Of a DNA stretch of 47,031 bases, positions 15,569-44,474 are shown one piece after another. The stretch is from an uncultured bacterium. GTDB lineage: Bacteria > Bipolaricaulota > Bipolaricaulia > UBA7950 > UBA9294. The number at the start of each line of letters is the position of its first letter. The first letter of the stretch is position 1. The DNA lies in contig CAJVYM010000006.1 in assembly GCA_913009415.1 (NCBI GenBank), forward strand, positions 1 through 47,031. Direction: 5' to 3'. The translations under genes and the position numbers were made by a program. The notes beneath the pieces were generated by a model. The model was not told the DNA's origin, made no database searches, and worked only from the letters and a program-made list of their open reading frames with translations.

Positions 15569-15597
15569 TTGACAACCTAGCTCGTGCGTGCTATAAA
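15569..15597 (+). promoter_or_regulatory. Strong sigma70-type promoter of the rex-Mbx operon
   Basis: Perfect -35 TTGACA (15569-15574), 17-base spacer, -10 TATAAA (15592-15597). Transcription should start at about 15604, exactly where the Rex operator begins. Confidence 0.8.
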
Positions 15598-15603
15598 TCG
15601 GAT

Positions 15604-15621
15604 TTGTGATCGTGAGCACAA
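15604..15621. promoter_or_regulatory. Rex operator
   Basis: TTGTGATCGTGAGCACAA matches the Rex consensus TTGTGA-N6-TCACAA with a single mismatch in the half-sites (GCACAA). It covers the predicted start site, so bound Rex should block transcription. It lies 17 bases before the rex ATG, giving autoregulation and control of all downstream genes on the same transcript. Confidence 0.78.
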
Positions 15622-15638
15622 GCACAAAGGAACGGTCG

Positions 15639-16265
15639 ATGGTAAAACACATGGATGTGCCGGAAGAGACGATGCAGCGTATGCTTGCTTACCTGCGTGA
15701 GCTCGACTGCTTATGGAACGAAGGCAAGGAGAAGTTCTCTTCGCAAAGCTTGGCCAAGGCACTCCATATGAACCCAGCTCAGATCCGCAAGGATTTCTCG
15801 TACTTTGGCGAGTTCGGAACACGTGGTGTTGGCTACGCTACCAAGCAGTTAATACAAGAATTGCGAGCGATACTAAACCTCGATCGCACTTGGCGATTGG
15901 CGCTGATCGGTGTTGGGAACATCGGCTCAGCGCTTCTACGCAATCCCGAGCTAAAGCGACAGGGTTTCGAGATCGTGCTGGCGTTCGATAAGGATCCTCG
16001 CCGGATCGGAAATAAGATTGGGCCGTTGACAGTGGAGGATGTGGTAAATGTCAAGAGGCGGATCCGCGAGGAAAAGGTGCAGCTAGCGATCATCGCCACG
16101 CCCGTTGAATGCGCGCAGGAGACGGCTGACAAGCTGATTCAAGCAGATATAAAGGGATTCCTCTGCTTCGCCCCCTGCCACCTGAGCATCCCGGACGAAA
16201 TAAGGATCGTACCGATCGATATTCCCATGGCGTTGGGAAAGCTGGTCTACCATATGGAGGTGTAG
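15639..16265 (+). CDS. rex: Redox-sensing transcriptional repressor Rex
   Basis: About 208 residues from ATG 15639, with AAAGGA seven bases upstream; the upstream GTG (15606) falls inside the operator. N-terminal winged helix (about 18-75, with SSQSLAKALHMNPAQIRKDF and GEFGTRGVGY) and a Rossmann domain (GVGNIGSALLRNPEL, FDKDPRRIG). Rex represses when NADH is low and releases DNA when NADH binds. It is the first gene of the operon; its stop region contains the SD (GGAGGTG) of the next gene. Confidence 0.95.
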   Translation: MVKHMDVPEETMQRMLAYLRELDCLWNEGKEKFSSQSLAKALHMNPAQIRKDFSYFGEFGTRGVGYATKQLIQELRAILNLDRTWRLALIGVGNIGSALLRNPELKRQGFEIVLAFDKDPRRIGNKIGPLTVEDVVNVKRRIREEKVQLAIIATPVECAQETADKLIQADIKGFLCFAPCHLSIPDEIRIVPIDIPMALGKLVYHMEV

Positions 16266-16267
16266 CG

Positions 16268-16780
16268 TTGGACGCACAGGGTGAACATCGAACTCAGCGT
16301 TACTTGACCGCGTTTGTCGTCTCGTACGGGGTGTGGCTTGCCCTTGTCGGGACACTCAACTGGCAGGAGCTTCTCATGGGGGGAGTGCTGTCGGCGATCG
16401 TCGCCGCGTTCGGTTGGCGTTACTTCTCGCAGGTGGGATTCTCCCGCTTGAGCGTGAAGAAACTTCTGTATTTGATCGTCTACATCCCGGTCTTCTTCTG
16501 GGCGATGATCAAGGCGAACTTTGACGTCGCCTACCGCGTGATCCATCCGCGCATGCCAATCCACCCGGGTGTCGTCCTCATAAAGACTGATTTGAAGTCG
16601 GACAGCGGGAAGCTTGCGTTGGCCAACTCGATCACACTCACTCCGGGGACGCTGACCATGGATGTTAAAGGGAACAGCATGCTCGTCCATTGGATCAACG
16701 TTAAGAGCACTGATACGGAGGAAGCCACAAGGATTATCAGCAAGCGATTCGAACGGTACCTGAAGGTGATCTTCTCATGA
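16268..16780 (+). CDS. mrpE: Mrp/Mbx complex subunit, MrpE type (MbxA-like)
   Basis: 170 residues with two or three N-terminal membrane helices, followed by the MrpE signature LTPGTLTMDVKGNSMLVHWI. Starts at TTG 16268, about six bases after GGAGGT inside the end of rex. MrpE is a small structural subunit of the Na+/H+ antiporter module. First structural gene of the Mbx-like complex; overlaps the next gene by ATGA. Confidence 0.88.
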   Translation: MDAQGEHRTQRYLTAFVVSYGVWLALVGTLNWQELLMGGVLSAIVAAFGWRYFSQVGFSRLSVKKLLYLIVYIPVFFWAMIKANFDVAYRVIHPRMPIHPGVVLIKTDLKSDSGKLALANSITLTPGTLTMDVKGNSMLVHWINVKSTDTEEATRIISKRFERYLKVIFS

Positions 16781-17034
16781 CAGCGCTATGGTTATTGTTC
16801 CTGTCGTTTAGCGCCGCGGGGATTGCTCTCTGCCTGGTGCGTGCGGCAGCAGGGCCCACTACCCCCGATCGGGTTGTGGGAGTGGATGGTATGGCTACCA
16901 TCAGTATCGCGCTGATGGTTCTCCTTGCTTCATTCTTCGATCGTCAAGTCTACCTGGACGTGGCGCTGGTGTACGCGGTCCTCGGGTTTATCGGGGTCCT
17001 CGCGGTGGCCCGCTACATGGAACGGGGTGTGTGA
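16777..17034 (+). CDS. mrpF: Mrp/Mbx subunit, MrpF type (MbxB-like)
   Basis: 85 residues, three predicted membrane helices. Contains RAAAGPTTPDRVVGVDGMATI and the ending DVALVYAVLGFIGVLAVARYMERG, both typical of MrpF. Part of the ion-translocating module; overlaps both neighbours. Confidence 0.9.
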   Translation: MTALWLLFLSFSAAGIALCLVRAAAGPTTPDRVVGVDGMATISIALMVLLASFFDRQVYLDVALVYAVLGFIGVLAVARYMERGV

Positions 17035-17381
17035 TGCGCATCTTCGGCGAGATCTTGATTGGAATCGGAACGGCGTTCCTCTTCCTGGGAGGGCTGGGGA
17101 TTTTTCGCCTTCCCGACGTGTACAACCGCCTGCAGGCGGGAACGAAGTGCACAACGCTGGGAGCGTTTTCCACCATCCTGGGTGTGGGATTCGTCCATCC
17201 GAACTGGATGCTGAAGGCGATTGTCATCGCGGTGTTCATCCTGCTCACCAACCCGATCAGCGCACATGCCCTGGCACGGGCAAGTTACAAGAGCGGGGTA
17301 AAGCTGTGGGACAAGAGCGTGGTCGATCGCTGTAAGGAGTTCGAGGAGTGCCAGGAGATAGGAAAGGAGGAGGAAGGATGA
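17034..17381 (+). CDS. mrpG: Mrp/Mbx subunit, MrpG type (MbxC-like)
   Basis: About 115 residues, three membrane helices. Contains GGLGIFRLPDVYNRLQAGTK, the MrpG signature, and TNPISAHALARASY. Starts at ATG 17034, which overlaps the mrpF stop; GTG 17031 is an alternative. A charged tail follows the last helix. Confidence 0.9.
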   Translation: MRIFGEILIGIGTAFLFLGGLGIFRLPDVYNRLQAGTKCTTLGAFSTILGVGFVHPNWMLKAIVIAVFILLTNPISAHALARASYKSGVKLWDKSVVDRCKEFEECQEIGKEEEG

Positions 17382-17614
17382 TCTACATCGCCATTCTCAC
17401 TGTAGCGATGCTCATCGCCGGGGTAGGGGCCTATTTCTTCCGCGACTTAATCGCCGCGGTCGTCGCCTGCGCCGCGGTGAGCCTGATCGCTTCTGTCCTG
17501 TTTTACCTGTTGCAGGCACCGGACGTGGCGATGGCGGAGGCGGCGATCGGTGCCGGGCTGACGACAGCCATCTTCGTGATCGCCATCCGCAAGACCGGGA
17601 GGTATGAGAAATGA
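17378..17614 (+). CDS. Mbx subunit, MbhD/MbxD-like (DUF4040, MrpA C-terminal part)
   Basis: 78 residues, three membrane helices. LLQAPDVAMAEAAIGAGLTTAIFV is the MbhD/MrpA-type motif (APDVAxTEAxxG). Start ATG 17378 after a long purine SD (GGAGGAGGAAGG), overlapping the mrpG stop. An upstream in-frame ATG (17348) lies inside mrpG and is rejected. Confidence 0.87.
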   Translation: MIYIAILTVAMLIAGVGAYFFRDLIAAVVACAAVSLIASVLFYLLQAPDVAMAEAAIGAGLTTAIFVIAIRKTGRYEK

Positions 17615-18330
17615 GGGCATTCGTAAGCTTCAGCGTCCTTGCCCTGATCGTTGTCGGGCTGGCGCTTTCCCTCTCTCACATCCCCTTCGGCAACAGCACG
17701 GCTAACACGGACCGGATGCATGTAGCCAAGTATTACCTAAATAACGGGGTAAAAGACACCGGAGCGCCGAACCTGGTTACCGCGGTGGTCCTGGATTACC
17801 GTGCGTTGGATACACTAGGAGAGGTCACGGTCCTGTTCATCGCCTCGCTCGGGCTGGGTATATTCCTCTCCTGGCCGAAGAAAGAAGGCTCAGAAGACGA
17901 TGACAAGCGCGGGCTGCCACCGGCGAGCTTGATCGTCCGTCGCGGATCGCAGTTCCTCTTCCCGCTCATTCTTTTGTTCGGGGGATACATCTTTCTCCAT
18001 GGGCATCTCACCCCTGGCGGAGGGTTCCAGGGCGGCTCGGTAATCGCCTCGGCGTTCCTGTTAATGTTCCTCGGCAACACCGGGTATCGCCTGCGTCAGA
18101 AAACACTTGCAGTGACGGAGAGCCTGGCCGGGATCACGTTCGTCATCATCGGCCTGATCGGGCTGGGGGTCGGCGGATACTTCCTCAACAACTTCCTTCC
18201 CAAGGGGAGCGTCTTCGCCCTGTTCAGTGCCGGTGTTATCCCCATCCTGTACGCGGCGATCGGACTTAAAGTAGGCGCGGAACTGGCGGGAATCGTGGCT
18301 AACATGTTTGGAAGCGGGAGCGAAGGATGA
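17611..18330 (+). CDS. Mbx subunit fusing MbhE-like and MrpB-like parts (MbxF-like)
   Basis: 239 residues. The first half has a helix, then GAPNLVTAVVLDYRALDTLGEV, as in MbhE/MrpA C-terminal segments. The second half has HGHLTPGGGFQGGSVIASAFL, the MrpB motif. In hydrogenase-type clusters E and F are separate; the fusion matches what I recall of the archaeal Mbx cluster. It belongs to the Na+/H+ translocation module. Confidence 0.87.
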   Translation: MRAFVSFSVLALIVVGLALSLSHIPFGNSTANTDRMHVAKYYLNNGVKDTGAPNLVTAVVLDYRALDTLGEVTVLFIASLGLGIFLSWPKKEGSEDDDKRGLPPASLIVRRGSQFLFPLILLFGGYIFLHGHLTPGGGFQGGSVIASAFLLMFLGNTGYRLRQKTLAVTESLAGITFVIIGLIGLGVGGYFLNNFLPKGSVFALFSAGVIPILYAAIGLKVGAELAGIVANMFGSGSEG

Positions 18331-18683
18331 CAATCGGAAATCCAATGATGTACGTTGGGGCAGTCGGACTGATCATGATCGGTCTGTTCACTGTCCTTAG
18401 TAAGCGAAACCTGATCAAGATCATTGTTGGGTTGACGCTTCTGGATACGGGAGTGAACGTTCTGCTGATCGCGATCGGTTACATCCATAACCGGACAGCG
18501 CCTATCGTCACCCGGACGTACACCGATCCAACCAAGATGGTCGACCCGATCCCTCAGGCGCTGGTCCTCACGGCGATCGTTATCGGCCTCGGGGTGACCG
18601 CCCTCGCCCTCGCCCTGGCGATCAGGGTGTACGGGCACTACAAGACGCTCGATACGCGCAAGATTAGGGGGCTTAAATGGTAG
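18327..18683 (+). CDS. mrpC: Mrp/Mbx subunit, MrpC/NuoK type (MbxG-like)
   Basis: 118 residues, three membrane helices, with the NuoK/MrpC features KIIVGLTLLDTGVNVLLIAIG and DPIPQALVLTAIVIGLGVTA. Membrane-embedded channel-forming subunit. ATGA overlap with the previous gene; slight overlap with the next. Confidence 0.9.
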   Translation: MTIGNPMMYVGAVGLIMIGLFTVLSKRNLIKIIVGLTLLDTGVNVLLIAIGYIHNRTAPIVTRTYTDPTKMVDPIPQALVLTAIVIGLGVTALALALAIRVYGHYKTLDTRKIRGLKW

Positions 18684-20152
18684 CCACGTTACTCATCGCT
18701 CTTCCGTTTCTCGGCGCGTTTCTGATCCCTCTCGTTGCCCTGGCCAACAAGAAAGCCTCCCACTACATACCGGCACTGGTCATGCTCAGCAATCTTGGGA
18801 TCTCGCTCGCCCTCCTGCCGCAGGTGATGCGTGCGCCGATCGTGATCTCTCTAAGCGGGTGGACGGCGCCCATCGCCATCAACTTCGTGGTGGGGCCGCT
18901 CGGTTTAGGACTGGCGATTCTCATCTCTCTTGTTGGCTTCCTCGTCTCTGTCTACGGAGTGGGCTACATTCATGAGGAGCCGAAGGAGAAGTATCACATG
19001 CTCGTCCTTACCCTCCTCACCGGGGCGACGGGGATGGTCCTTACGGGCGATATCTTCAACCTGTTTGTCTTCTTCGAGATTCTCAGCCTTTCCTCGTACG
19101 CCTTAACAGGATACAACCGTGACCGTGGTGGGACGGAGGCGGCGATCAAGTACCTCATTCAAGGATCGATCGGCTCGGCGTTCATCCTGATCGGTATCGC
19201 TCTGCTGTACGGAACCACGGGCACACTGAACATGGCCGACATCGCTGCGCATGTCGCTGGAGTGGATCCGACACTGTTGTTCATGGCCATGTCTCTTCTC
19301 ATCGTTGGGTTCGGGGTGGAGGCGGCGATCTTCCCGCTCAACGCCTGGCTTCCCGACGCGCACTCTTCGGCGCCATCGTCGGTGAGCGCGATCCTCTCGG
19401 GGATAGCAATCGAGACCGGAGCATACGCCGTGGCACGGATCGTGTACACCGTCTTCGATGGACACGGGATCATGCTCGTTCTCGCTATTCTAGGAGTAGT
19501 AACACTCCTACTCGGAGAGATGTCGGCTTTCAGACAGAAGGATGACATAAAGCGGCTGCTTGCCTATTCAAGTATCGGGCAGATGGGATTGATCATGCTC
19601 GCCTTCGGGATCGCTAGCGATGCCGGTGTGTTCGCGGCGCTCTTTCAGCTCGTCAGTCACACCCTGGCTAAGGCCCTGTTGTTCCTTGCTAGCGGCTACA
19701 TCATCTACCGCGTGGGATCGAAGAAACTCTCGGCCCTCGCTGGCCTGGGGCGGAAGATGCCGTTCACCGGAGCGATGATCTCGGTCGCTGTCCTGTCGCT
19801 CATCGGCGTACCCCCGTTTGCCGGGTTCATGAGCAAGTTCTCCATCGTGCGGGCGGCGCTAGCACAGCACAGCGCCTCCTACACCGGGCTCATCGTTCTC
19901 GTGCTGTTGGCGACGGTGATCGAGGTGGGATACTTCATGAAGTTACTACAGATCATGTTCTTCACGCAAGCCGAGGGGGAGGAATCGGTGAAGGAGCTGC
20001 CGCTGTCGGCGTTGATTCCGATCACCATCCTCGCGGCGCTGATCATCATTATCGGGGTTTACCCGCACATGATCTCCGGGCTACTGCAACAAGCGGCAAG
20101 CGGGCTGGTGGAGAGATCGGCTTATATCCAAACAGTGTTGGGAGCGCAATAA
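18677..20152 (+). CDS. mrpD: Antiporter-like subunit, MrpD/NuoN type (MbxH-like, first copy)
   Basis: 491 residues with about 14 membrane helices. Contains the ion-channel motifs of the family: the glutamate in FVFFEILSLSSYAL, a lysine after the middle helix break (KYLIQGSIGSAF), and SIGQMGLIMLAFG. It should pump Na+ or H+. A second, longer relative follows directly. Confidence 0.9.
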   Translation: MVATLLIALPFLGAFLIPLVALANKKASHYIPALVMLSNLGISLALLPQVMRAPIVISLSGWTAPIAINFVVGPLGLGLAILISLVGFLVSVYGVGYIHEEPKEKYHMLVLTLLTGATGMVLTGDIFNLFVFFEILSLSSYALTGYNRDRGGTEAAIKYLIQGSIGSAFILIGIALLYGTTGTLNMADIAAHVAGVDPTLLFMAMSLLIVGFGVEAAIFPLNAWLPDAHSSAPSSVSAILSGIAIETGAYAVARIVYTVFDGHGIMLVLAILGVVTLLLGEMSAFRQKDDIKRLLAYSSIGQMGLIMLAFGIASDAGVFAALFQLVSHTLAKALLFLASGYIIYRVGSKKLSALAGLGRKMPFTGAMISVAVLSLIGVPPFAGFMSKFSIVRAALAQHSASYTGLIVLVLLATVIEVGYFMKLLQIMFFTQAEGEESVKELPLSALIPITILAALIIIIGVYPHMISGLLQQAASGLVERSAYIQTVLGAQ

Positions 20153-20153
20153 C

Positions 20154-22010
20154 ATGATCCTAGAAATACTTGTTATCATCGGACTCGCCGCCCCATTGTT
20201 GGGGGTCGCCATTGGCTACCGCAGGCCGCGGGTGCGAAGTGTCTATTCGCTTCTAGTGGCGCTCTTCCCGCTCGTTGCTCTCTCTACCATGTATGGGCGA
20301 ACGATCGCCGTTAACTACGCGTACCTTCCCTTCTTGGGAATCGACCTGTCGCTTCGCCTGACACCTCTTTCCTGGTTCTTCGGGATTGCTATGACCGCGA
20401 TCGGCCTGTTGGCGCTCGTCTATTCGTTTGCCTATATGAAGGACCGCAAGCGGCTCGATCTATTCTACTTCCTGTTCCTGCTCGTGAACGGGGGGATGCT
20501 CGGGGTGGTGCTGAGTGGCGATATGTTCACGTTCTACATTCTGTGGGAGATCATGAGCGTGGCTACGTTCATGTCGATCAGCTTCAACGGAAAAGGGGCG
20601 CTCTCAGCGGGGATCAAGTACATTCTGTTCTCGATCGCCGGGTCATCGGCGATGCTGCTCGCCATCGTCAGCCTGTACGTGAACTTCGGGACGGTCGATA
20701 TCATCGCCCTAACCACGGCCATGTCCGGTGCGACCGTCGGCTACGCGGTCTTTATCCTGATGATGTTCTCTCTTGCCTTCGGGATCAAGAACGCTCTTCT
20801 GCCGCTTCATCCGTGGCTTCCAGCGGCGTACGCGGAGTCACCGACCCCGTTCACCGCGGTCCTGGGAGGGATGCTCACCCGCTTGGGGGTGTACGGGTTC
20901 CTGCTAGTGATGTATGTGATGATCGGCATGCCGCTCGTCCATCGGATGAGCTACGGTCTGGTGAACTATCAAATAATTCTCGCCTGGATCGCCGGGATCA
21001 CGATCCTGTTTGGGGTCTTCGTTGCGGTGTTCAAGGACGATGCCAAGCAGGTCCTCGCTTGGTCGTCGATCGGGCACGGCGGGTACATGATCCTCGGGCT
21101 GGCTCTCTTCTCGACATTGGGCCTGGCCGGGGGGATATTCCACATCCTCAACTACGCGATGTGCGTCTCCCTCCTCTTCCTCGCGGTGGGGGCGGTGGAG
21201 TACCGCACCGGAACGCGCGACTTGACGAAGCTAGGCGGGCTGCACAAGCGGATGCCGGTGACGTTTGTCTCCGCGATGATCGCCGTCTTTGGGATGATTG
21301 GAGTTCCGTTGACCAACGGGTTTGTCTCCAAGTGGCTGATCTACAAGGGATTGATCCTCGGCGGGCACCCGTTCCTCACGTTCACCGCGTTGATCGGTAC
21401 CTGGGGGACTATCCTCTACGGCTACAAGCTGATTCACAACACGTTCCTGGGCCGCTTGCCGCAGCGCTATGCGCAAGTTAAGGAAGTTCCGTGGCTGATG
21501 CAGGCTCCGATGATCACTCTGTCGAGTCTGATCGTGCTGTTCGGTATCCTCCCGGGAATTCCGCTCAAGGCGGTCGCCCTGATCGAGAGTTCGTTCGGCG
21601 TGAAGCCGATCGTAACCGGGCTGGTGGGAATGCCGCAGGGAGTGGGGGAGATGAACCTGCTAAACATCTTCGGCGGGATCGTCGCGGCTACGCTTGTTAT
21701 GTACGCCCTGTTTTCCCTCACCGCGCGTCCGCGCCGAGCCGGCCCACAGGACACGTACACCGCTGGTGGGCCGACTCCATCTGATAACTACAACTATGCT
21801 TCACGCTTCTACGATCCAGCAGAGCATGTGCTGAAGCCCTACCTGCACGATTGGGCGGATTCGTTCTACGCCTGGGTGGGAAGACAGAGCACGGCGTTGT
21901 TTGAGAGTGCGCGCAAGGTCTATTCGGGGAATATCAACACCTACGCGTTATGGATCGTGATCCTGCTCGGGGTGTTTGCAACGATGAATCTACTGGGGTG
22001 GAGGCCATGA
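20154..22010 (+). CDS. Antiporter-like subunit, second MrpD/NuoL-type copy (MbxH'-like)
   Basis: 618 residues. The core (about 1-510) repeats the MrpD/NuoL plan, with FTFYILWEIMSVATFMSISF, GIKYILFSIAG and SSIGHGGYMILGLAL. The extra C-terminal 100 residues, from the Arg/Pro-rich RPRRAGPQDTYTAGG to a final helix NTYALWIVILLGVFATMNLLG, form an amphipathic arm plus anchor, like the lateral helix of NuoL-type subunits. Two adjacent copies distinguish Mbx/Mbs clusters from the single-copy Mbh hydrogenase clusters. Confidence 0.87.
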   Translation: MILEILVIIGLAAPLLGVAIGYRRPRVRSVYSLLVALFPLVALSTMYGRTIAVNYAYLPFLGIDLSLRLTPLSWFFGIAMTAIGLLALVYSFAYMKDRKRLDLFYFLFLLVNGGMLGVVLSGDMFTFYILWEIMSVATFMSISFNGKGALSAGIKYILFSIAGSSAMLLAIVSLYVNFGTVDIIALTTAMSGATVGYAVFILMMFSLAFGIKNALLPLHPWLPAAYAESPTPFTAVLGGMLTRLGVYGFLLVMYVMIGMPLVHRMSYGLVNYQIILAWIAGITILFGVFVAVFKDDAKQVLAWSSIGHGGYMILGLALFSTLGLAGGIFHILNYAMCVSLLFLAVGAVEYRTGTRDLTKLGGLHKRMPVTFVSAMIAVFGMIGVPLTNGFVSKWLIYKGLILGGHPFLTFTALIGTWGTILYGYKLIHNTFLGRLPQRYAQVKEVPWLMQAPMITLSSLIVLFGILPGIPLKAVALIESSFGVKPIVTGLVGMPQGVGEMNLLNIFGGIVAATLVMYALFSLTARPRRAGPQDTYTAGGPTPSDNYNYASRFYDPAEHVLKPYLHDWADSFYAWVGRQSTALFESARKVYSGNINTYALWIVILLGVFATMNLLGWRP

Positions 22011-22915
22011 GCATAGGACTACAGATTGCGTGGATGATAAGCTTGCCGATCGTGACGATACTGCTCGTTGCAGTGCTGTTCACTGGAATATCTCTCAAGG
22101 TAACCGCGCGCATCGACCGCCGCTACGGGCCGCCGATCTACCAGCCGGTGATCGACCTCGTAAAATTGGTCAGCCTGAAATCAAACGTGTCACACGGGCT
22201 GATATTCAATTGGGGACTTTTGGTCGCAATCGGTGGATCGACCGCGGCACTGTTGATGGTGCCGATGGGGGGAATACACATCTTCTCCGGATCGGGCGAC
22301 CTGTTGGTATTGATCTATCTGATGCTCGTCTCCTCCCTTGGGGTTGGCCTTTCCGTCGGGGCATCGGAGAACCCGAATGCATCGATGGCCGCATCACGCA
22401 GCCTGATGCTCGGTCTGGGGTACGAGGTTCCGTTCCTGCTGATACTGCTGGCGATGATGACTTATTATCATACGACATCGCTCATGGATCTCGTCATGCT
22501 TCAGCGAGCAGGGGGAATGCTGGGTGTACTGCGTTTCCCGCTCTCGGCGATCGCCGGGCTTCTTATCATGCCGGCGATGCAGGGGGTGCGCCCGTTCGAC
22601 ATCGTGACCGCACCACAGGAGGTGGCCTCCGGGACGATGGTCGAGCTTGGGGGAAAGTTCCTCGCCCTGTCGGTGATCGAGCATTCGCTGCACGCGATGG
22701 TCGTTCTTTCACTTTACGTGGACATATTCTTCGGTGGAGCGACCAACCTGGGGATCTTTTTCCTCAAGGTGACGGGGCTGTTCCTAGCTGGTGTACTGAT
22801 AAACGCGGTCTATCCCCGCTTCAGGGTGGAGCAGGCCCTACGCTACTGCTGGCGCTGGCCAACGTGGTTTGCCCTTGCTGGGCTGATCATGGCCATGGTG
22901 ATAAAGGGAGCGTAA
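22007..22915 (+). CDS. mbxM: Membrane-arm linker subunit, NuoH/MbhM type (MbxM-like)
   Basis: 302 residues from ATG 22007, which overlaps the previous stop; the longer upstream start lies inside the previous gene. About eight helices. ARIDRRYGPPIYQPVIDLVKL matches the NuoH/MbhM cytoplasmic loop, and GVRPFDIVTAPQEVASGTMVE matches the conserved quinone- or cofactor-side loop. It joins the peripheral arm to the antiporter-like arm. Confidence 0.92.
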   Translation: MSIGLQIAWMISLPIVTILLVAVLFTGISLKVTARIDRRYGPPIYQPVIDLVKLVSLKSNVSHGLIFNWGLLVAIGGSTAALLMVPMGGIHIFSGSGDLLVLIYLMLVSSLGVGLSVGASENPNASMAASRSLMLGLGYEVPFLLILLAMMTYYHTTSLMDLVMLQRAGGMLGVLRFPLSAIAGLLIMPAMQGVRPFDIVTAPQEVASGTMVELGGKFLALSVIEHSLHAMVVLSLYVDIFFGGATNLGIFFLKVTGLFLAGVLINAVYPRFRVEQALRYCWRWPTWFALAGLIMAMVIKGA

Positions 22916-22920
22916 GAAAA

Positions 22921-23484
22921 ATGGAAAAATACAAACGCGGTAAGATGTGGGCGACGCACCCGTACAAGTGGGGGCAGAAGTACTCCATATGGCCGATCCA
23001 CTTTTGCACCGGGTGCGGATCGATCGAGATGCCGCCAACGATGCTCGCCCCGTATGATGCGAGCCGGTTCGGGATGGGACCAATGGCCAGCCCGCGCCAG
23101 GCAAATCTGTTGATGATCACCGGGTATCTGACGCCCAAGACATTGAAGTACGTCATCCGTACGTACGAGCAGATGCTGACCCCACGCTACCTGGTCTCGT
23201 TCGGTTCCTGTCCGATCGATGGCGGAATGTATTACACCTCCTACAACACGATCAACCACCTCAAGTGGTACCTCCCGGTCGATGTGTGGATCGCGGGATG
23301 CATGCCCCGGCCGGAGGCGTTCCTCATGGGAATGAACAAGCTGATGGAGGAGATCGAGAAGGGGACTGCCGATGGCTACCTGCGCTACGAACGGGACCGC
23401 GAGTACTACCGCGAGCACCAAGAACGCGCGTTGGGGAGCAATTTCTTGGAAGACCTGAAACAAGTGGAGTGGATCACGGAATGA
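22921..23484 (+). CDS. mbxJ: Small Fe-S subunit, NuoB/MbhJ type (MbxJ-like)
   Basis: 187 residues from ATG 22921; the long upstream extension in the same frame is inside mbxM. Ligands for the proximal [4Fe-4S] cluster are visible: Cys29 and Cys32 (HFCTGCGSIEM), Cys97 (SFGSCPIDGG) and Cys127 (IAGCMPRPEA). The CxxC pair is the hydrogenase/Mbx form rather than the CC pair of true complex I. It passes electrons between the ferredoxin-type subunit and the large subunit site. Confidence 0.92.
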   Translation: MEKYKRGKMWATHPYKWGQKYSIWPIHFCTGCGSIEMPPTMLAPYDASRFGMGPMASPRQANLLMITGYLTPKTLKYVIRTYEQMLTPRYLVSFGSCPIDGGMYYTSYNTINHLKWYLPVDVWIAGCMPRPEAFLMGMNKLMEEIEKGTADGYLRYERDREYYREHQERALGSNFLEDLKQVEWITE

Positions 23485-23948
23485 AAGAAGAGGCTCTAAA
23501 AGAAAAACTGGAGGCTCGCTTCGCCGGAGTACGTGCTGATGTCAAGCGTCAACAGCGGGTGGTTGCCTTTTTGCCACTGGATAGCGTGAGTACGGTCCTG
23601 ATGTGGCTTAAGGACGAAGGATATCATCAGCTCACGCTTATCACATGCGTAGACTGGATCGAAGAGGGGCAGTTCGAGCTCGTGTACCATGTCGCCTCGC
23701 ACGCCGACGGAATCCACGTCATGCTCAAGGCCCGGGTCGATCGGGAGAACCCGGTTGCATTGAGCATCACCTCGCTCTACGAGAACGCGCAACCCTACGA
23801 GCGAGAGATTCACGAGTTCTTCGGGGTCGACTTCACCGGGAACGGTAACCTGACTCCTCTCTACCTAGATAACTGGGATGATATTCCCCCGATGCGCCGT
23901 GATTTTGATACGTTAGCCTATTCAGAGAGGAAGTATGACTATGAGTGA
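23481..23948 (+). CDS. mbxK: NuoC/MbhK-type subunit (MbxK-like)
   Basis: 155 residues from ATG 23481 (ATGA overlap with the previous gene). Contains TCVDWIEEGQFELVYHVAS and the NuoC signature YEREIHEFFGVDFTGN, and ends PMRRDFDT. Structural subunit of the peripheral arm. It is separate from the NuoD-type gene. Confidence 0.9.
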   Translation: MKEEALKEKLEARFAGVRADVKRQQRVVAFLPLDSVSTVLMWLKDEGYHQLTLITCVDWIEEGQFELVYHVASHADGIHVMLKARVDRENPVALSITSLYENAQPYEREIHEFFGVDFTGNGNLTPLYLDNWDDIPPMRRDFDTLAYSERKYDYE

Positions 23949-25065
23949 CGAACAAATCGCCAGCAGGGAAAGGGAAGTGGATCTCCTTTTTGGACCACAG
24001 CACCCGGGGGTATCGGGAAACTTCAACATCACCGTTACCGTGGAAGGGGAGACGATCCGCCACATCGAGATGAATCTCGGCTTTCTTCATCGTGGTTTCG
24101 AGAAGATGTTGGAGAACGTCGGTTATCTGCAGGGATTCCCGTTTGTCTGTCGGATGAACGTGATGGATCCAGACCCCAACGAACAGGTGTATGCCATGGC
24201 GATCGAGGAGCTGGCCGGGATCGAAGTCCCCCCACGGGCGCACTACATTCGCTCGTTGATTCTAGAGATGTCACGCCTGTCCACCCACCTTCTATGGTTA
24301 AACGGGATGGCCGGAGCGATGGGGTTCTACACGATCAACCACTGGGCGATGCTCGCCCGCGATGAGATCCTCGACATGTTCTCCCAGATTGCCGGGGCGC
24401 GCGTTTATCACATCTACATCCTCCCTGGCGGAGTGCGTCGTGATGTCCCCGAGGGCTTCGCCGGAAAGATGACCGCTTTCCTCGACGACTTTGAGAAGAC
24501 GCTGCACGATTTTGATGCGGTGATGTTCAACAACCGTGTCTTCCGCAAGCGCACCGATGGAGTTGGAATACTCACGCGTGAGGATGCTCTGCGTTGGGGA
24601 GTAACCGGAGCAAACCTGCGTGCAACAGGCATCGCCCGCGACGTGAGGGTGGAGGAGCCGTACGCGGCCTACGCCGAGCTGGACTTCGAGATTCCCACAC
24701 GAACCGAATGTGATTCGTACGCGCGGTCGATGGTGGTTCGCGCTGAAGTGGACCAGAGCGTATCCATCATCCGCCAGGTCCTGAAGAAGATACCGGCGGG
24801 ATCGGCGTGGAACCGGACGCCCAATCCGTTCAAGTGGAGAATACCAAGGGGTGAGGCGTATGCGCGCGTGGAGTCAGGACGAGGGGAGCTCGGAATGTAC
24901 GCCGTCTCCGACGGATCAAACAAGCTTCGTCGGTTGTCCTATCGCGGCCCATCGCTCCCGCACGGGCTTGTCGTGTTGCCAAAGCTGCTTGTCGGAATGA
25001 GCGTGCCGGACATCGCACACATGGCATCGAGCTTGAATATCTCGGTCCCGGAAATAGACCGCTAG
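23941..25065 (+). CDS. mbxL: Large catalytic-type subunit, NuoD/MbhL family, without Ni-Fe cysteines (MbxL-like)
   Basis: About 374 residues from ATG 23941, seven bases after GAGAGGAAG; ATG 23935 is too close to that SD. LLFGPQHPGVSGNFNI and EMNLGFLHRGFEK are typical N-terminal motifs. Where nickel-iron hydrogenases have an RxCxxC pair the sequence is FVCRMNVMDPDPNEQ (only Cys70). Where they have DPCxxC near the end it reads LLVGMSVPDIAHMASS, with no cysteine. Only one other Cys (TEC) occurs. It therefore cannot build a Ni-Fe site and is not a hydrogenase; Mbx/Mbs-type sulfur or ferredoxin redox activity is the best guess. Confidence 0.9.
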   Translation: MSDEQIASREREVDLLFGPQHPGVSGNFNITVTVEGETIRHIEMNLGFLHRGFEKMLENVGYLQGFPFVCRMNVMDPDPNEQVYAMAIEELAGIEVPPRAHYIRSLILEMSRLSTHLLWLNGMAGAMGFYTINHWAMLARDEILDMFSQIAGARVYHIYILPGGVRRDVPEGFAGKMTAFLDDFEKTLHDFDAVMFNNRVFRKRTDGVGILTREDALRWGVTGANLRATGIARDVRVEEPYAAYAELDFEIPTRTECDSYARSMVVRAEVDQSVSIIRQVLKKIPAGSAWNRTPNPFKWRIPRGEAYARVESGRGELGMYAVSDGSNKLRRLSYRGPSLPHGLVVLPKLLVGMSVPDIAHMASSLNISVPEIDR

Positions 25066-25075
25066 AGGAGGGATG

Positions 25076-26935
25076 ATGAGTAAAGGAAGCATGCTGGGGT
25101 CATTTGTCGGGCTTAAGTACCTGTTTGCGAAGCCGCGCACTGTGGCCTATCCCTACGAGAAGCGGGAGATCGCCGAGCGTTACCGCGGGTTTCACAAGAA
25201 TGACCTTGAGGAGTGCATCGGCTGCGGAAACTGTGCCGATATCTGCCCGTGCGCGGCAATCACCATGGTCAAGGTGCCCGGGATCGAGGCCGATCCGAAG
25301 AAAGGGTCGACCAATGAACGGCCGCAGATCAACTACGGTCGCTGTACGTACTGTGGGCTATGCGTGGACGTCTGTCCGACCGGAAGCTTGAGCCTGTCGC
25401 GGGACTTCATCCACAACGACGATAACCCTGACACCTTCGTTGCCCTGGCACGCGATGAGAAGGTGGCGAGCGAGGTGTTCATCGATGGTTTGAGCGACTT
25501 TGACGCCAGCCTCGATCACCGCAAGAAGGATGACAAAGGATACGCCAGCGACCTTGCTTTCTGTCTTGCCGACTTCGACGGTCATGCCAAGGAGATGGAG
25601 ATCCTCCCTGCGGAGGAGCGGTTAGGTTCGTTCCTGGAGATGGTGCGCGGGTTCACTCGCGAGCAGGCGATCACCGAGGCGTCGCGCTGCTTCGAGTGTG
25701 AGGTGTGCGAAGAGGCCTGTCCGGCGCACATGAACGTCGCCGACTACATCCGCGACATCTGGAGCGAGGACCACGATCAGGCGGCGCGCGACATCTACAA
25801 GACCAACCCCCTTCCTGAGGTGTGCGGCCGCGTGTGCACGCACGACTGCGAAACGGCGTGCGCCCTGTCCCATCGCGGGGATGCTGTCTCCATCCGCTGG
25901 CTCAAGCGCTATGCCATGGATCAGATACCGCGCGAGGACTACAAACGCATTCTTGGGACCCAGATCGTCAAGTCGAACGGCAAGAAGGTAGCGATCGTCG
26001 GTGCCGGTCCATCCGGCCTCTCCGCCGCTTACTACCTGGCGCTGATGGGTTACAAGGTGATCGTATTCGAGGAGAAGGATAAGCCCGGAGGGATGATGCG
26101 CTACGGGATTCCCGAGTACCGCATGCCCTACGACGCGCTTGCTAAGGACATCGACTACATCGAATCGGTAGGGGTGGAGATCCGTTGCAACACCCAAGTG
26201 GGAAAAGACGTCACTCTGGAAGACCTGCAGCGCGATTACGGAGCTGTCTTCGTCGGAATCGGCCTGCAGGGAGGGCGGAGCACGCGCGTTGAGGGAACGG
26301 ATCATCCCCGTGTCTTTCAGGCGATCGACCTCCTGCGTCGCATCACCCGCGGCGAGGAGATCGAGCTTACCGAGAAGATCGTGGTCATCGGTGGAGGGAA
26401 CGTCGCCATGGACATCTCGCGCAGCATCGCTCGCCTGCAGAAGGCGCGCTACGGCGTGGTTGATCTGACGACCACCTGCCTGGAGACCGAAGACATCATG
26501 CCCGCCGACGTGGAAGAGATCGAGGAGGCACGCGAGGAAGCGATCGTGATCATCCCCGGGCGCTCTCCGCAGAAGATAGAAATCGTGGACGGTGAGATAA
26601 CCGGATTGCACACGGTTCAGTGCGTATCAGTATTCGATGAAGAACATCGCTTCAACCCGCAGGTAAACGAGGAGGACAAGCTGTTCATCCCCGGAACGAT
26701 GATCGTCGAGGCGATCGGTCAGAGCGCTGACGACTCGCTGATCACCGATGAGATCAAACAGACCCTGGAGTACGCTGGCAGACGGATCAAGGTGAACGAA
26801 TACAACCAGAGCAGCCTTCCGTGGCTGTACTTTGGCGGAGACTTCGTCAAGGGGCCGGACGTGATCACCGGGATTTCCACCGGCCATCAAGCGGCACGCG
26901 GAATCGACGCCTACTTGAACGAAGTGGACGAGTAG
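25076..26935 (+). CDS. Fusion of NuoI/MbxN-type ferredoxin subunit with GltD/NfnB-type NAD(P)H flavoprotein
   Basis: 619 residues. Residues 1-115: MbxN/NuoI-like protein with two [4Fe-4S] motifs, Cys47-50-53-57 and Cys90-93-96-100. Residues about 180-290: the GltD-type N-terminal Fe-S region, Cys205-208-211-215 and Cys250-254-258-262. Residues 305-619: two dinucleotide folds, the FAD site GAGPSGLSAAYYL (309) with GGMMRYGIPEYRMP and the NAD(P)H site GGGNVAMDISRSIARLQ (439), then YFGGDFVKGPDVITG. This joins the electron-entry subunit of the membrane complex to a pyridine-nucleotide oxidoreductase. ATG 25076 is four bases after AGGAGG; ATG 25073 is too close. Last gene of the operon. Confidence 0.92.
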   Translation: MSKGSMLGSFVGLKYLFAKPRTVAYPYEKREIAERYRGFHKNDLEECIGCGNCADICPCAAITMVKVPGIEADPKKGSTNERPQINYGRCTYCGLCVDVCPTGSLSLSRDFIHNDDNPDTFVALARDEKVASEVFIDGLSDFDASLDHRKKDDKGYASDLAFCLADFDGHAKEMEILPAEERLGSFLEMVRGFTREQAITEASRCFECEVCEEACPAHMNVADYIRDIWSEDHDQAARDIYKTNPLPEVCGRVCTHDCETACALSHRGDAVSIRWLKRYAMDQIPREDYKRILGTQIVKSNGKKVAIVGAGPSGLSAAYYLALMGYKVIVFEEKDKPGGMMRYGIPEYRMPYDALAKDIDYIESVGVEIRCNTQVGKDVTLEDLQRDYGAVFVGIGLQGGRSTRVEGTDHPRVFQAIDLLRRITRGEEIELTEKIVVIGGGNVAMDISRSIARLQKARYGVVDLTTTCLETEDIMPADVEEIEEAREEAIVIIPGRSPQKIEIVDGEITGLHTVQCVSVFDEEHRFNPQVNEEDKLFIPGTMIVEAIGQSADDSLITDEIKQTLEYAGRRIKVNEYNQSSLPWLYFGGDFVKGPDVITGISTGHQAARGIDAYLNEVDE

Positions 26936-40354: not shown

Positions 40355-42511
40355 CTATTGATAAGGCTTTATGACCTTGATGACATCAGGGAAGTCGATT
40401 CCTAACCGCTCCAGCGTTGCGAGCGTGGGAACGCCGTCGTTTGTCCAACCGCGCCGCTGGTACGCCGCGTCGCACAGCTTATCGTACTGCTCCTCACGGA
40501 ACGCGCGCAGGACCTTCACCTTCTCCGCTGTACTCATCCCAGTCGGATCTACTTCCACCTTCTCCTGCAACTGCTTATCGTATCGCTCGGCGCGGGACTC
40601 GTACTCCTCCTCGGTCACCGGGCCAACGGAACGATAAGGAATCCGGTCGTGCTCGCGGCGGCCATAACCCAGGCGCAGGTTGAACACTCGCTGGAAGTTA
40701 TAAACCCGCTCGGACTGGATGATGAGATCATCAGGAGTAACCTCAATTCCGGTAACACCGGAGAAGAGATCACAGTAGTTCTGCACGTGCTCCGGCACCT
40801 TGGCACTGTCGATCCCGTTGTAACGAGTGCCATTGTCCGCCGGTTCGATGTCGTTCCACGGAAGCTTGCACAACCCCATCAGACCAAACCAGGTGCGCCA
40901 CATCGGGAAGTAGTGGAGCGCTTCCGCCTTATCCTCGAACGTCGGGATCTGGTTATTCACCATGTCCATGAAGATCAACCACGCCTCGTCGTGCTGCGGT
41001 CCTTTCAACGCCAGGCCGTAGCCGCCCTGCATAGCCAGTGACTCCTTGGTCACATACTCGGAGTACTCCATTCCCTTGCACTCCATTCCGATATCGTTTA
41101 AGAAATCCGGATCAGCGCCGTACTCCTTTACGAAATACTCCTTCATCCGTCTGATCCCCTGACCGGCGATCGCCCCGAACCCCTCTCCGCGACCGATCTG
41201 GTGCAGCACTTCGAGCGCATCGTTAGCCTTTCCAAAGTGCAAGTCGAGGCCGCCGGTCTTCTCCTTGTCCAGAATTCCGGCCTCGTAGCACTCCATGACA
41301 AACGCCATCCCCGTTGTGTAGGAGATGGTATCGAGCCCGTAGGTATCGCAGTAGAAGTTCATCTCCAGGACAAACTCGGGGTCGAAAATTCCCATGTTCG
41401 CCGAGCCACCGGCCGTCTCGTATTCCGGGCCGTCCACAACGACATGCTGCCCCTTGTACGGTCCCGTGTGCAGCTCAAAGCCATCGACGGCGTGCGAGCA
41501 GGACATGGTGCAACCCATCCAGCAGCCGTCCGGCGTCCCTTGCGTAAACTTTTCGCGCCACACAGTGGATGAGATCTTGCCCGTATCGGGGTGAGATCCA
41601 AACCTATAGTTTGTCACCGGTAGCAGGTCGAACTCGTCCATGATCTCCACCAGATGCGCCGTCCCGACATGGCGCATGTCGCACTGCGAGGAATCGAGAG
41701 TGAGGATCTCCTTGTTGATCCGCTCCCCCGCTCGCTTCAACTTCTCCATATCCGCCGGGCCGTTGGCATCAGGCTTAACGCCGGTGTGCTTCACCACCAG
41801 CGCGGCGATCCCCTTGTCGCGAAAGACCGTGCCGATCCCCCCGCGACCGGCCTGCTTCACACGCGGGACCCTACGCTTCATATCGAAGAAACTGAAATTC
41901 AGGCAACCGATGTACGCATGCTCCGCCCCGACGCCGGCCGAGACAGTAGAGATGGCCAGAAGATCGCGCGGAGAGTCGGATTCGGCAAACTGATGCAGCA
42001 ACTTATGTGCGAGGACGTGCGTGTTCAAGTCGGTCTCGGTCGACTCGAGGATCTCCACCGTTCTCGCATCCCCATCGATGAACACGATGACATCGCGATC
42101 GCTCTTACCCTGAATCTCGAGCGAGTCCCAGCCGGAGAACTTAAGGTACGGGCCGAAGTATCCCCCGACGTTGGAGTCGATCACGCTTCCCGTAGTGGGA
42201 GAAAGGCTAACGACGAGCGACTTCCCCGCACCAGGATAGGTAGTGATCCCGCCGATCGGCCCCGCCCCGATCACGATCTCGTTCTCCGGATCGTTCCACT
42301 TTGTATCCTTCGTGACCGCGTTCCACAGGCGCCACAGGCCAAACCCACGCCCGCCGATGAACTTCTCCTTCATCATTTGGGTCACTGGCCGCGCCTCGAT
42401 CTTCCCCGTACCGACGTTCACGTAGAGCGTTTGATTCGCGTAGCCATGCTTCAACTGCACCGACTCGTACGACATCTGAGAAATGACCCTGTACCCCTCA
42501 TGTTCTGCCAT
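40355..42511 (-). CDS. aor: Tungsten-type aldehyde ferredoxin oxidoreductase
   Basis: About 718 residues from ATG 42511, with AGGAGGG four bases upstream; the upstream ATG (42532) overlaps that SD. AOR N-domain: GGRGFGLWRLWN, GAGPIGGITTYPGAGKS, SNVGGYFGPYLKFSGWD, VKQAGRGGIGTVFRDKGIAALV. The Fe-S cysteines near the centre are Cys330, Cys334, Cys338 (GCWMGCTMSC), and a later one is in MGLCKLPW. The enzyme oxidises aldehydes to acids (or the reverse) with ferredoxin, using a tungsto-bispterin cofactor in the cytoplasm. The Cys spacing, CX3CX3C, differs from the CX2CX3C of characterised AOR, so the subfamily and substrate are uncertain. Confidence 0.9.
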   Translation of the reverse strand: MAEHEGYRVISQMSYESVQLKHGYANQTLYVNVGTGKIEARPVTQMMKEKFIGGRGFGLWRLWNAVTKDTKWNDPENEIVIGAGPIGGITTYPGAGKSLVVSLSPTTGSVIDSNVGGYFGPYLKFSGWDSLEIQGKSDRDVIVFIDGDARTVEILESTETDLNTHVLAHKLLHQFAESDSPRDLLAISTVSAGVGAEHAYIGCLNFSFFDMKRRVPRVKQAGRGGIGTVFRDKGIAALVVKHTGVKPDANGPADMEKLKRAGERINKEILTLDSSQCDMRHVGTAHLVEIMDEFDLLPVTNYRFGSHPDTGKISSTVWREKFTQGTPDGCWMGCTMSCSHAVDGFELHTGPYKGQHVVVDGPEYETAGGSANMGIFDPEFVLEMNFYCDTYGLDTISYTTGMAFVMECYEAGILDKEKTGGLDLHFGKANDALEVLHQIGRGEGFGAIAGQGIRRMKEYFVKEYGADPDFLNDIGMECKGMEYSEYVTKESLAMQGGYGLALKGPQHDEAWLIFMDMVNNQIPTFEDKAEALHYFPMWRTWFGLMGLCKLPWNDIEPADNGTRYNGIDSAKVPEHVQNYCDLFSGVTGIEVTPDDLIIQSERVYNFQRVFNLRLGYGRREHDRIPYRSVGPVTEEEYESRAERYDKQLQEKVEVDPTGMSTAEKVKVLRAFREEQYDKLCDAAYQRRGWTNDGVPTLATLERLGIDFPDVIKVIKPYQ

Positions 42512-42634
42512 CGATCCCTCCTCAATGGACACTTACTAAGCTTGATTGGTTACTACAACGCGTGAGTTTAGGAAACGGACTACGAATTCGCAACTGCCCT
42601 TCCTTTGGGTTCATACCTTTGAAAGCGCCGTCAA

Positions 42635-43052: not shown

Positions 43053-44474
43053 ATGTCCCATCCGCGAAGAAAGAACAAGATCGATCGTATCGAACCCACC
43101 TCTGAAAACTTGACCGGCAGAGCCGGCCTGACCCCGTGGGTGCGCTACCTGGAACGGATCAACATCTACCAGTTGCTGGACCGCTACCCCAATGAAGTAA
43201 GACTTCACGGGGCAGGCTTCGGCTCGATCCGGAAATCATCTAAAGGGATCAAGGTGGCAGAAGCGTTCAAGCAGTTGTTGTGCTTCTTCCTCGATGGCAC
43301 GGATCCGCACCTGACCTACTTTGACCACCTGGCTGCCGACAGCGGGTACGCGTCCACCATCGAGACGGACCCTGGGGATATGGTGTCATCGCACCAGATG
43401 AAACGGTTCCTCAACGGGTTCTCCTTCTGCAGGAACTTCCTGTTTCGCCGGCTGTTGCAAGATCTGTTTGTGTGGCGGCTGCAGGCACAGAACCCCCCGG
43501 TCGTGTTGTTGGATCTGGATACGATGGTGATGGACAACGACGATGCGCGGTGCAGAGAAGGGGTAGACCCCACCTACAAAAAGCGTAAAGGGTTCCAACC
43601 CTTACAGCTGAAGTGGGGACCGTACGTGGTGGATGCGGTATTCCGACGAGGCAAGAAACACTCTAACCATGGCCAGACGGTCATACGTACGATGACTCAC
43701 ATCGTAGACAGAATCAGGAAAGAGTACGCTCCCAATGTGCCGATCGTGCTTACTGTAGACGCTGGTTTCTTCGACCAAGAGAACTTCCGTGCGTTTGAAA
43801 AGTTAGGTAGCGGTTACGTATGTGGAGGCAAGGTATACAACGATATCGAACAACGAGCCCAGCAGATTCCTGAACAGGACTGGCAGCCCTTGGACAAGGA
43901 AGACGGCCGTTGCTACCTTTGTGCCTCCTTTGGTGACCAACGGGGGACGTGGGACAAGCCAAGGAGGGTAGTGTTCACCCGGCTGATCAGGAAGGATTAC
44001 CACGGGGTGTTGTCCTTTGCCCAAGACCGGAAAGTGTACTACACCAACCTGGGGGAGGGTGATCCGTTGGATCAGTTGCTCAAGGCGGTCGGGAAGGCCA
44101 GTTGGCTAACGCCTCCCGGGGTGGCGGACCTGGCCCATGGCCGGGGCAAGGATGAACTACGTCACCGTGCGCTGAAGGAGTTCGGTACAGAGAAGCTTCC
44201 GTTCAAGAGGTTTGAACCGAACACTGCCTTCTACTACACGATGGTCGTTGCATTCAACCTGCTGGAGGCGTTCAAGCGGGACGTCACCGAGGAGAGCATC
44301 TGTCCTGACGTGTATCCCGCCACCTTCCGCCGGATGTTTCTGGACATTGCGGGAAAGATCATAGTGACTGGTGGTCGTACGCTCCTTAAGGTGGCGCGTG
44401 CGGTGTGGGAGCGGTTGAACCTCCAGAAGATCTGGGACCAAGCCAATTCGCCTCCGGTGGCTGCTCTGGTCTGA
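43053..44474 (+). CDS. DDE transposase (IS1380/IS4-like)
   Basis: 473 residues. Candidate catalytic acidic residues: VVLLDLDTMVMDNDD (first D), VLTVDAGFFDQENF (second D), and the E region ELRHRALKEFGTEKLPF with FEPNTAFYYTMVVAFNLLEAFK, as in IS1380-type enzymes. SD AGGAGGTG precedes the ATG. Residues 45-55 (around NEVRLHGAG) come from a palindromic repeat that seems to have been added between DRY and GSIRKSSKG. The ORF is otherwise intact, so it may be active. Confidence 0.9.
   Translation: MSHPRRKNKIDRIEPTSENLTGRAGLTPWVRYLERINIYQLLDRYPNEVRLHGAGFGSIRKSSKGIKVAEAFKQLLCFFLDGTDPHLTYFDHLAADSGYASTIETDPGDMVSSHQMKRFLNGFSFCRNFLFRRLLQDLFVWRLQAQNPPVVLLDLDTMVMDNDDARCREGVDPTYKKRKGFQPLQLKWGPYVVDAVFRRGKKHSNHGQTVIRTMTHIVDRIRKEYAPNVPIVLTVDAGFFDQENFRAFEKLGSGYVCGGKVYNDIEQRAQQIPEQDWQPLDKEDGRCYLCASFGDQRGTWDKPRRVVFTRLIRKDYHGVLSFAQDRKVYYTNLGEGDPLDQLLKAVGKASWLTPPGVADLAHGRGKDELRHRALKEFGTEKLPFKRFEPNTAFYYTMVVAFNLLEAFKRDVTEESICPDVYPATFRRMFLDIAGKIIVTGGRTLLKVARAVWERLNLQKIWDQANSPPVAALV
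43187..43217. repeat. Palindromic repeat inside the transposase gene
   Basis: CCCCAATGAAGTAAG then ACTTCACGGGGCAGGC. CCCC...GGGG and TGAAGT...ACTTCA form nested inverted arms. 28 of 31 positions match the intergenic copy at 13432-13462. It is translated in frame. Confidence 0.8.

Follow-up and report, generated by a model that had tools for sequence, protein, structure and literature searches.

Described relatives of the locus

The best solved match to two core subunits of the operon described here is the membrane-bound sulfane reductase (MBS, or MBX) of Pyrococcus furiosus (PDB 6U8Y). MBS sensu stricto has a short, two-cluster N subunit and takes electrons from ferredoxin. In its J subunit, a shortened motif leaves the catalytic cluster with three cysteines (PMC7684303). 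Older literature gave Mbx a role in electron transfer from ferredoxin to NAD(P)+, but later work identified the Mbx of P. furiosus as the sulfane reductase. The MBX of Thermotoga maritima has been treated as a ferredoxin-dependent MBS homolog (PMC9431562). Homologous modules are found in the group 4 NiFe hydrogenase Mbh, which binds Ni-Fe through CxxC/CxxC motifs and has a single antiporter subunit, and in respiratory complex I (NuoA-N), with which the operon shares the core J, K, L, M, and N subunits, the antiporter subunits, and a predicted NADH module feeding an iron-sulfur wire. The GltD fold serves as an electron-input module in StnC of StnABC and in the large subunit of NfnABC, which are NADPH-type and feed a HydBC-like bifurcating unit; the Stn GltD domain is described as a non-bifurcating NADPH input (Stn paper). 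NfnL (NfnB) of NfnAB, by contrast, is itself bifurcating, is NADPH-type, and needs NfnS.

A thirteen-subunit operon with a fused N subunit

In the window, meaning the whole stretch of 47,031 nucleotides analyzed here, 13 structural ORFs occupy positions 16268-26935 of the + strand in the order A-B-C-D-E(F)-G-H-H'-M-J-K-L-N, which is exactly the MBS/MBX order. The gene content and order had been proposed from the sequence before any search, and Pfam domain calls bear them out. The first genes encode subunits A (MrpE; 16268..16780; MNHE), B (MrpF; 16777..17034; MrpF_PhaF), C (MrpG with a conserved P75; 17031..17381; PhaG_MnhG_YufB), D (MbhD; 17378..17614; MbhD), E(F) (17611..18330), in which MbhE and MnhB/MrpB are fused in one ORF (MbhE + MnhB), and G (MrpC/NuoK-like; 18327..18683; Oxidored_q2). 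Two antiporter-like subunits follow, both matching Proton_antipo_M: H, with 491 residues (18677..20152), and H', with 618 residues (20154..22010). Residues E134, K332, and K387 of H are kept in all 59 aligned sequences, as are E132, H219, and K393 of H' in all 62. These conserved residues indicate an intact Mrp-type ion module and, as far as that module goes, agree with the original prediction of energy conservation as a Na+ or H+ gradient. The remaining genes encode the NuoH-like membrane anchor M (22007..22915; NADHdh), the NuoB-like J (22921..23484; Oxidored_q6), the NuoC-like K (23481..23948; Complex1_30kDa), the NuoD-like L (23941..25065; Complex1_49kDa), and N (25073..26935; Fer4, Fer4_20, and Pyr_redox_2). 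The fused E/F subunit and the two antiporter subunits are features of the MBX/MBS family. Unlike complex I, the operon keeps the Mrp E, F, G, and B modules and has no NuoEFG, its NADH module being non-homologous.

The main departure from P. furiosus MBS lies in N, a single uninterrupted ORF of 620 codons that joins a NuoI/MbsN domain (residues ~1-130, two clusters), a Fer4_20 domain (~173-300, two clusters), and a GltD-type FAD/NAD(P) domain (~301-620). The proposal that a pyridine nucleotide module is physically part of the electron-entry subunit therefore holds. A single-chain structure prediction gave a fold match to NfnL (5jca) with a TM score of 0.85 by target length. The fusion is neither a chance event nor an assembly artefact, since the ORF is uninterrupted, the arrangement recurs in 47 other complete loci, the 16 cluster cysteines are invariant in 48/48 proteins, and every domain is under strong purifying selection (dN/dS of 0.05-0.18 wherever dS could be estimated, two linker comparisons being saturated). 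The fused flavoprotein domains group together in a single clade (99/96), next to NfnABC/Stn and not with NfnL, and K278 of the window N matches K170 of StnC, where NfnL has a Glu. The nicotinamide pocket is acidic in 45 of the 48 fused proteins, with an LE motif that points to NADH by a rule that is itself heuristic; the exceptions are L109, which has YRR, and L119 and L120, which lack the pocket motif. YRR is instead found in the NfnL, Xfn, NfnABC, and Stn chains compared. In contrast to StnC, the partner fused to the module here is complex-I-like. A four-cysteine Fer4_20 cluster was also considered as proof against bifurcation and was dropped, as other GltD relatives also have a Cys at the C251 position.

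The fused form is not unique and not rare. Among the complete N genes of the loci found, all 47 bacterial ones, spanning ~20 phyla, have the fusion, the sole form found in bacteria, while the 11 archaeal ones are all unfused. An NCBIfam model of the subunit, NF010590 (PRK13984), already exists without a function; the window N matches it end to end with 825 bits, under the curated cut-off of 946, and the N of Thermotogaceae scores 1170 bits. Given its spread over ~20 phyla, the system is probably not a peculiarity of a single genome but an ion pump, driven by NADH, that evolved independently. Five Thermotogaceae loci have the same operon and the same N-GltD fusion. No description of this fusion was found in the literature covered, which did not extend to subscription papers such as Schut et al. 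2016, and a search for published biochemistry of any fused member also returned none.

The J/L/M chamber and its predicted acceptor

Three observations place the operon with Mbx/Mbs and not with Mbh, as originally predicted: J and L both have P. furiosus MBS (6u8y) as their best solved match, the J loop is of the MBS type, and L forms one clade with Pyrococcus MbsL (support 100/99), outside both the NiFe hydrogenases and complex I. A placement of L among active NiFe hydrogenases, which would have spoken against the original prediction, is not what the tree shows. J scores 213 bits against 6u8y_J, the next match reaching 111 bits. Its short HFCTGCGSIE motif is three residues shorter than that of Mbh in an alignment with Mbh and NuoB, and C32, C97, and C127 are the predicted ligands of the proximal [4Fe-4S] cluster. 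The non-ligating first Cys of the motif is substituted in six loci of the family. By analogy with MBS, where such a cluster is the sulfane-reducing site, the proximal cluster of J would thus be left with three cysteines.

In L, all four Ni-Fe cysteines are replaced, by N, D, S, and E. It is therefore nearly certain that the complex is not an NAD(P)H-linked membrane hydrogenase, although group 4 ancestry, the Mrp modules, and the presence of a true Mbh close to the operon in some carriers might suggest one: with none of the Ni-Fe cysteines and a position outside the hydrogenase clade, L refutes this reading at the sequence level, as the original prediction had anticipated. We considered whether PMC8542988 had mis-annotated this complex as the group 4g hydrogenase that it reports in Ca. 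Celaenobacter, and rejected the idea, because a true four-Cys Mbh lies a few kb downstream on the same contig.

The same core fold, and an L that is nearer to complex I than to the hydrogenases, could also suit a variant of complex I that reduces quinone and has had its NADH module substituted. However, the equivalents of His38 and Tyr87 of the quinone site are S and V, and J has CTGC where complex I has a tandem CC. In addition, single-family searches for the menaquinone markers MqnA/D-type and MenD gave no match over cut-off in this genome. Of 19 other genomes checked, 18 being bacterial carriers, 17 likewise had no menaquinone marker over cut-off. A quinone acceptor is very improbable and already largely refuted.

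The absence of Ni-Fe and quinone-site residues is thus shared with P. furiosus MBS, but the window L goes further, with N and S at the positions of C85 and C385 of MbsL, the two cysteines that MBS retains. MBS is reported to be active without them (PMC7684303). Their loss nevertheless marks a divergence, and the acceptor may differ from that of MBS. The L subunits of Thermotogaceae, unlike that of the window, keep C85 and C385, and the Thermotoga-type MBX forms a separate branch.

Predicted Rex control and direction of electron flow

The span first assigned to the operon, 15569-26935, does contain the 13 structural genes on the + strand, but a rex gene inside it (15606..16265, +; Put_DNA-bind_N and CoA_binding), encoding an NADH/NAD+-sensing repressor, went uncounted. 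Its start codon is more likely ATG at 15639 than GTG at 15606, and the structural genes start 3 bp downstream of rex. The span begins at the -35 box of a sigma-70-type promoter (15569..15597, +), with TTGACA at 15569, a 17-bp spacer, and TATAAA at 15592. Between the -10 box and the likely ATG lies a predicted Rex operator (15604..15621, +; TTGTGATCGTGAGCACAA), an exact match to TTGTG-N8-CACAA, for which 0.02 sites per window are expected. Orthologous and distant loci alike have the same predicted site at the start of rex, and it is conserved across phyla. Its position at the operon promoter would imply induction by NADH, with Rex keeping the operon repressed until NADH builds up. P. furiosus MBS is controlled by SurR instead, and the Thermotogaceae loci that reach far enough upstream have no rex directly upstream.

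These features bear on the reaction originally predicted, in which the fused flavoprotein reduces NAD(P)+ with reduced ferredoxin and Na+ or H+ is pumped, as was once proposed for P. furiosus Mbx. N does hold a ferredoxin-type NuoI domain together with a nicotinamide flavoprotein. However, this would bring the two reactants together at N, a long way from the J/L/M chamber, which powers pumping in the complex I superfamily, and induction at high NADH has the wrong sign for an NADH producer. Moreover, this genome and 28 of 33 bacterial carriers already have Rnf (ferredoxin:NAD+ oxidoreductase), which runs the same reaction. Within Bipolaricaulota, Rnf is present in 5/7 carriers and 33/93 other genomes, numbers that are too small and too confounded by phylogeny to indicate more than coexistence. 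With the NADH-type pocket, the StnC-like flavoprotein, and the MBS-type chamber also against it, we consider this direction quite unlikely.

A two-donor or branched enzyme is unlikely as well, whether NADH and ferredoxin confurcate to an acceptor in the chamber or the gradient pushes NADH electrons uphill to ferredoxin. N retains a domain of the MbsN type, which in MBS serves ferredoxin, and the GltD fold is able to bifurcate in NfnL. However, neither the operon nor the rest of the window shows an NfnS-type partner, and the GltD-type domain falls with the non-bifurcating subunit of Stn/NfnABC and has K278 at the position of the NfnL Glu.

We give about an even chance to the explanation that bacterial MBX is a complex-I-like, ion-pumping, Rex-controlled NADH dehydrogenase, in which a GltD/StnC-type flavoprotein fused to N passes electrons from NADH to a sulfane- or disulfide-like acceptor. 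The Rex operator, the NADH-type pocket, the StnC-like input flavoprotein, the coexistence with Rnf, and the retained MBS-type chamber together lead us to infer NADH, in preference to NADPH, as donor and a small compound in the chamber as acceptor. NADH would reduce the FAD of N, and single electrons would then pass over four [4Fe-4S] clusters, two in the Fer4_20 domain and two of the NuoI type, to the three-Cys proximal cluster in J. This cluster would reduce its acceptor inside the hydrophobic J/L/M chamber, the acceptor being a small compound of the sulfane or disulfide kind, either polysulfide, as used by MBS, or a related molecule. The energy released would move H+ in H and H' and, in the distal Mrp module, exchange Na+ for H+. 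Among the points against this NADH-oxidizing reading, electron transfer from NADH to polysulfide yields little energy, so that few ions could be moved per electron pair, and the NuoI domain could still serve as a docking site for ferredoxin.

Taken further, and with somewhat less than even confidence, the operon may represent a second, independently evolved NADH-driven complex I in many anaerobic phyla: an MBX pump, induced by NADH via Rex, that carries a StnC-type NADH module as a fusion and reduces a small sulfur compound at a bare Fe-S cluster. Judged by sequence features, its L, without any of the four Ni-Fe cysteines, would then be intermediate between MBS and modern complex I.

If this is true, many uncultured anaerobes own an NADH-oxidizing respiratory pump that annotation pipelines label as pieces of complex I plus glutamate synthase and that the papers covered here treat as ferredoxin-linked MBX. 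Together with Rnf, it would make up a two-site, quinone-free chain from ferredoxin to NADH to a sulfur compound. The presence of the fused form in Thermotogaceae opens the idea to testing in cultured strains. Finally, because an MBX lineage fused a different NADH module, the family would offer a natural experiment on how complex I gained its own.

A bacterial branch of the MBX/MBS family

The operon opens with a TTGACA/TATAAA promoter (15569/15592) and a rex gene (15606-16265), which precedes 13 structural genes ending at 26935. Each subunit was assigned by Pfam, and the genes are arranged as in MBS (A, B, C, D, E, G, H, H', M, J, K, L, N), the fused E/F protein corresponding to the six-helix MbsE of MBS (PMC7684303). 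The gene count, the order and the NuoI-GltD fusion of the original prediction were fully confirmed. The window is one of the contigs of a draft assembly of 2.3 Mb; when genomes were scanned with the J alignment, its nearest named relatives were mostly Candidatus Bipolaricaulota. The window also carries an IS-type transposase gene (DDE_Tnp_1_4; 43053-44474).

The assignment to the Mbx/Mbs family was also right. Among solved structures, Pyrococcus furiosus MBS was the best match for both J (213 bits, next match 111) and L (319 bits, next match 236). In a maximum likelihood tree of L (63 rows), hydrogenases form one clade and complex I another, and an MBX/MBS clade of 52 rows (support 100/99) takes in both the window L and P. 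furiosus MbsL. Nested within it is a bacterial subclade of 39 rows that includes the window (support 100/95). Here, the positions of MbsL C85 and C385 are occupied by Asn and by Ser/Val/Ile/Thr/Ala, so that all four ancestral Ni-Fe cysteines are lost; the C85/C385 equivalents are retained in Thermococcus, DHVE2, Thermotogaceae and a few others. The short MBS-type motif is also present in the window J, and the first, non-ligating cysteine is Gly, Ala or Ser in six other family members, which fits a three-Cys cluster family-wide. Four divergent loci (L109, L119, L120 and L117, including Flavobacteriales and Lutibacter) have Gly at this position. Bacterial fused MBX is widespread and is not a new kind of system. 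A contig labelled Aenigmatarchaeota carries a fused MBX that groups with bacterial sequences in the L tree and was probably mis-binned or transferred.

Other hydrogenase-related loci were observed. A second complex-I-like cluster in the window's genome (contig C36, 563-8084: NuoH, antiporters, fused K-L, NuoB-like J) has NSSE in place of the Ni-Fe cysteines of L, making it another hydrogenase-related complex. Contig C26 of this genome encodes a cytoplasmic NiFe hydrogenase large subunit (17904-19130, 480-aa frame), perhaps NAD-linked, near a 532-aa frame with a weak RnfC match (NuoF-like?). One Neomarinimicrobiota genome has the main fused MBX, a true Mbh and a second, divergent fused MBX whose L, by eye, is missing the Ni-Fe cysteines. 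In Cloacimonadota and a handful of further loci (L087, L085, L076, L047), Mbh-type hydrogenase genes lie downstream of the operon for the fused MBX; in the Celaenobacter genome, the hydrogenase downstream of N keeps all four Ni-Fe cysteines.

The fused N subunit

The window N (620 aa) joins NuoI/MbsN and Fer4_20 domains to a GltD-type flavoprotein. Its AlphaFold2 model has a mean pLDDT of 86 and a pTM of 0.82, and the C-terminal part matches NfnL (5jca) in Foldseek. All 48 full-length fused N proteins share 16 invariant cysteines, a number sufficient for four [4Fe-4S] clusters. The genome scan found 250 relatives; among the best 80, ranked by similarity to the window and hence a biased sample rather than a census, complete N genes are fused in bacteria (47/47) and short in archaea (11/11). 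In a tree whose motif filter excluded some members, Thermotogaceae among them, the flavoprotein domains from fused N fall into one clade (support 99/96), making a single fusion event likely. The architecture is already in databases as a function-less entry, NCBIfam PRK13984 ‘putative oxidoreductase’, for which a Thermotogaceae protein scores 1170 bits and the window 825, below the 946 cut-off.

Predicted nicotinamide preference and Rex control

An acidic residue where the second Rossmann strand ends normally selects NADH. Leu-Glu occupies this position in 45 of 48 fused N proteins, and Tyr-Arg-Arg in NfnL, Xfn, NfnABC and Stn chains, from which we infer that fused N uses NADH. Of the divergent loci, L109 has a YRR pocket (NADPH type), L119 and L120 are without a pocket motif and L117 is truncated before N. 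In the tree, the window flavoprotein groups with the NfnABC large subunit and StnC, a non-bifurcating input module (PMC10482914). StnC K170 aligns with window K278, where NfnL has Glu.

Rnf is encoded in the window's genome and in 28/33 bacterial carriers (0/4 archaeal), so that an additional Fd:NAD+ oxidoreductase is not obviously needed. As Rnf occurs in 38/100 Bipolaricaulota genomes, its link with MBX is coexistence, not proof. An aldehyde ferredoxin oxidoreductase gene in the window (AFOR_N + AFOR_C; 40355-42532) is a likely source of reduced ferredoxin.

Only 3 bp separate rex from subunit A downstream, and an exact TTGTG-N8-CACAA palindrome (expectation 0.02 per window) lies at the rex start. 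Across 336 kb (19 records, some overlapping or repeats of the same contigs), the palindrome has 12 strict matches, every one at this operon's rex start, including loci of Eisenbacteria, Fermentibacteria-type and Neomarinimicrobiota genomes. Where bacterial loci extend that far, about half have rex directly upstream (14 strict and two abutting). Rising NADH releases Rex from DNA; the operon should thus switch on to consume NADH.

Possible ion coupling and electron acceptor

In H, H', M and the small Mrp subunits, the key charged residues are ~100% conserved, as is MrpG proline P75, probably the equivalent of MbsC P83; redox-coupled ion pumping is therefore plausible.

Quinone is an unlikely acceptor, because its ligands are lost (the His38 and Tyr87 equivalents in the window L are Ser and Val) and searches for futalosine-type and MenD genes gave no match above cut-off in the window's genome or in 17 of 19 further genomes. 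The Leu-Glu pocket, StnC-like flavoprotein, Rex operator, Rnf and MBS chamber together indicate that the reaction originally predicted, from ferredoxin to NAD(P)+, probably had the wrong direction and partner. In T. maritima, mbxA is up 4.4-fold with sulfur (PMC9431562), and Thermotogaceae MBX loci share the N fusion, a family-level link. The kept MBS chamber suggests a sulfane or disulfide compound as the acceptor.
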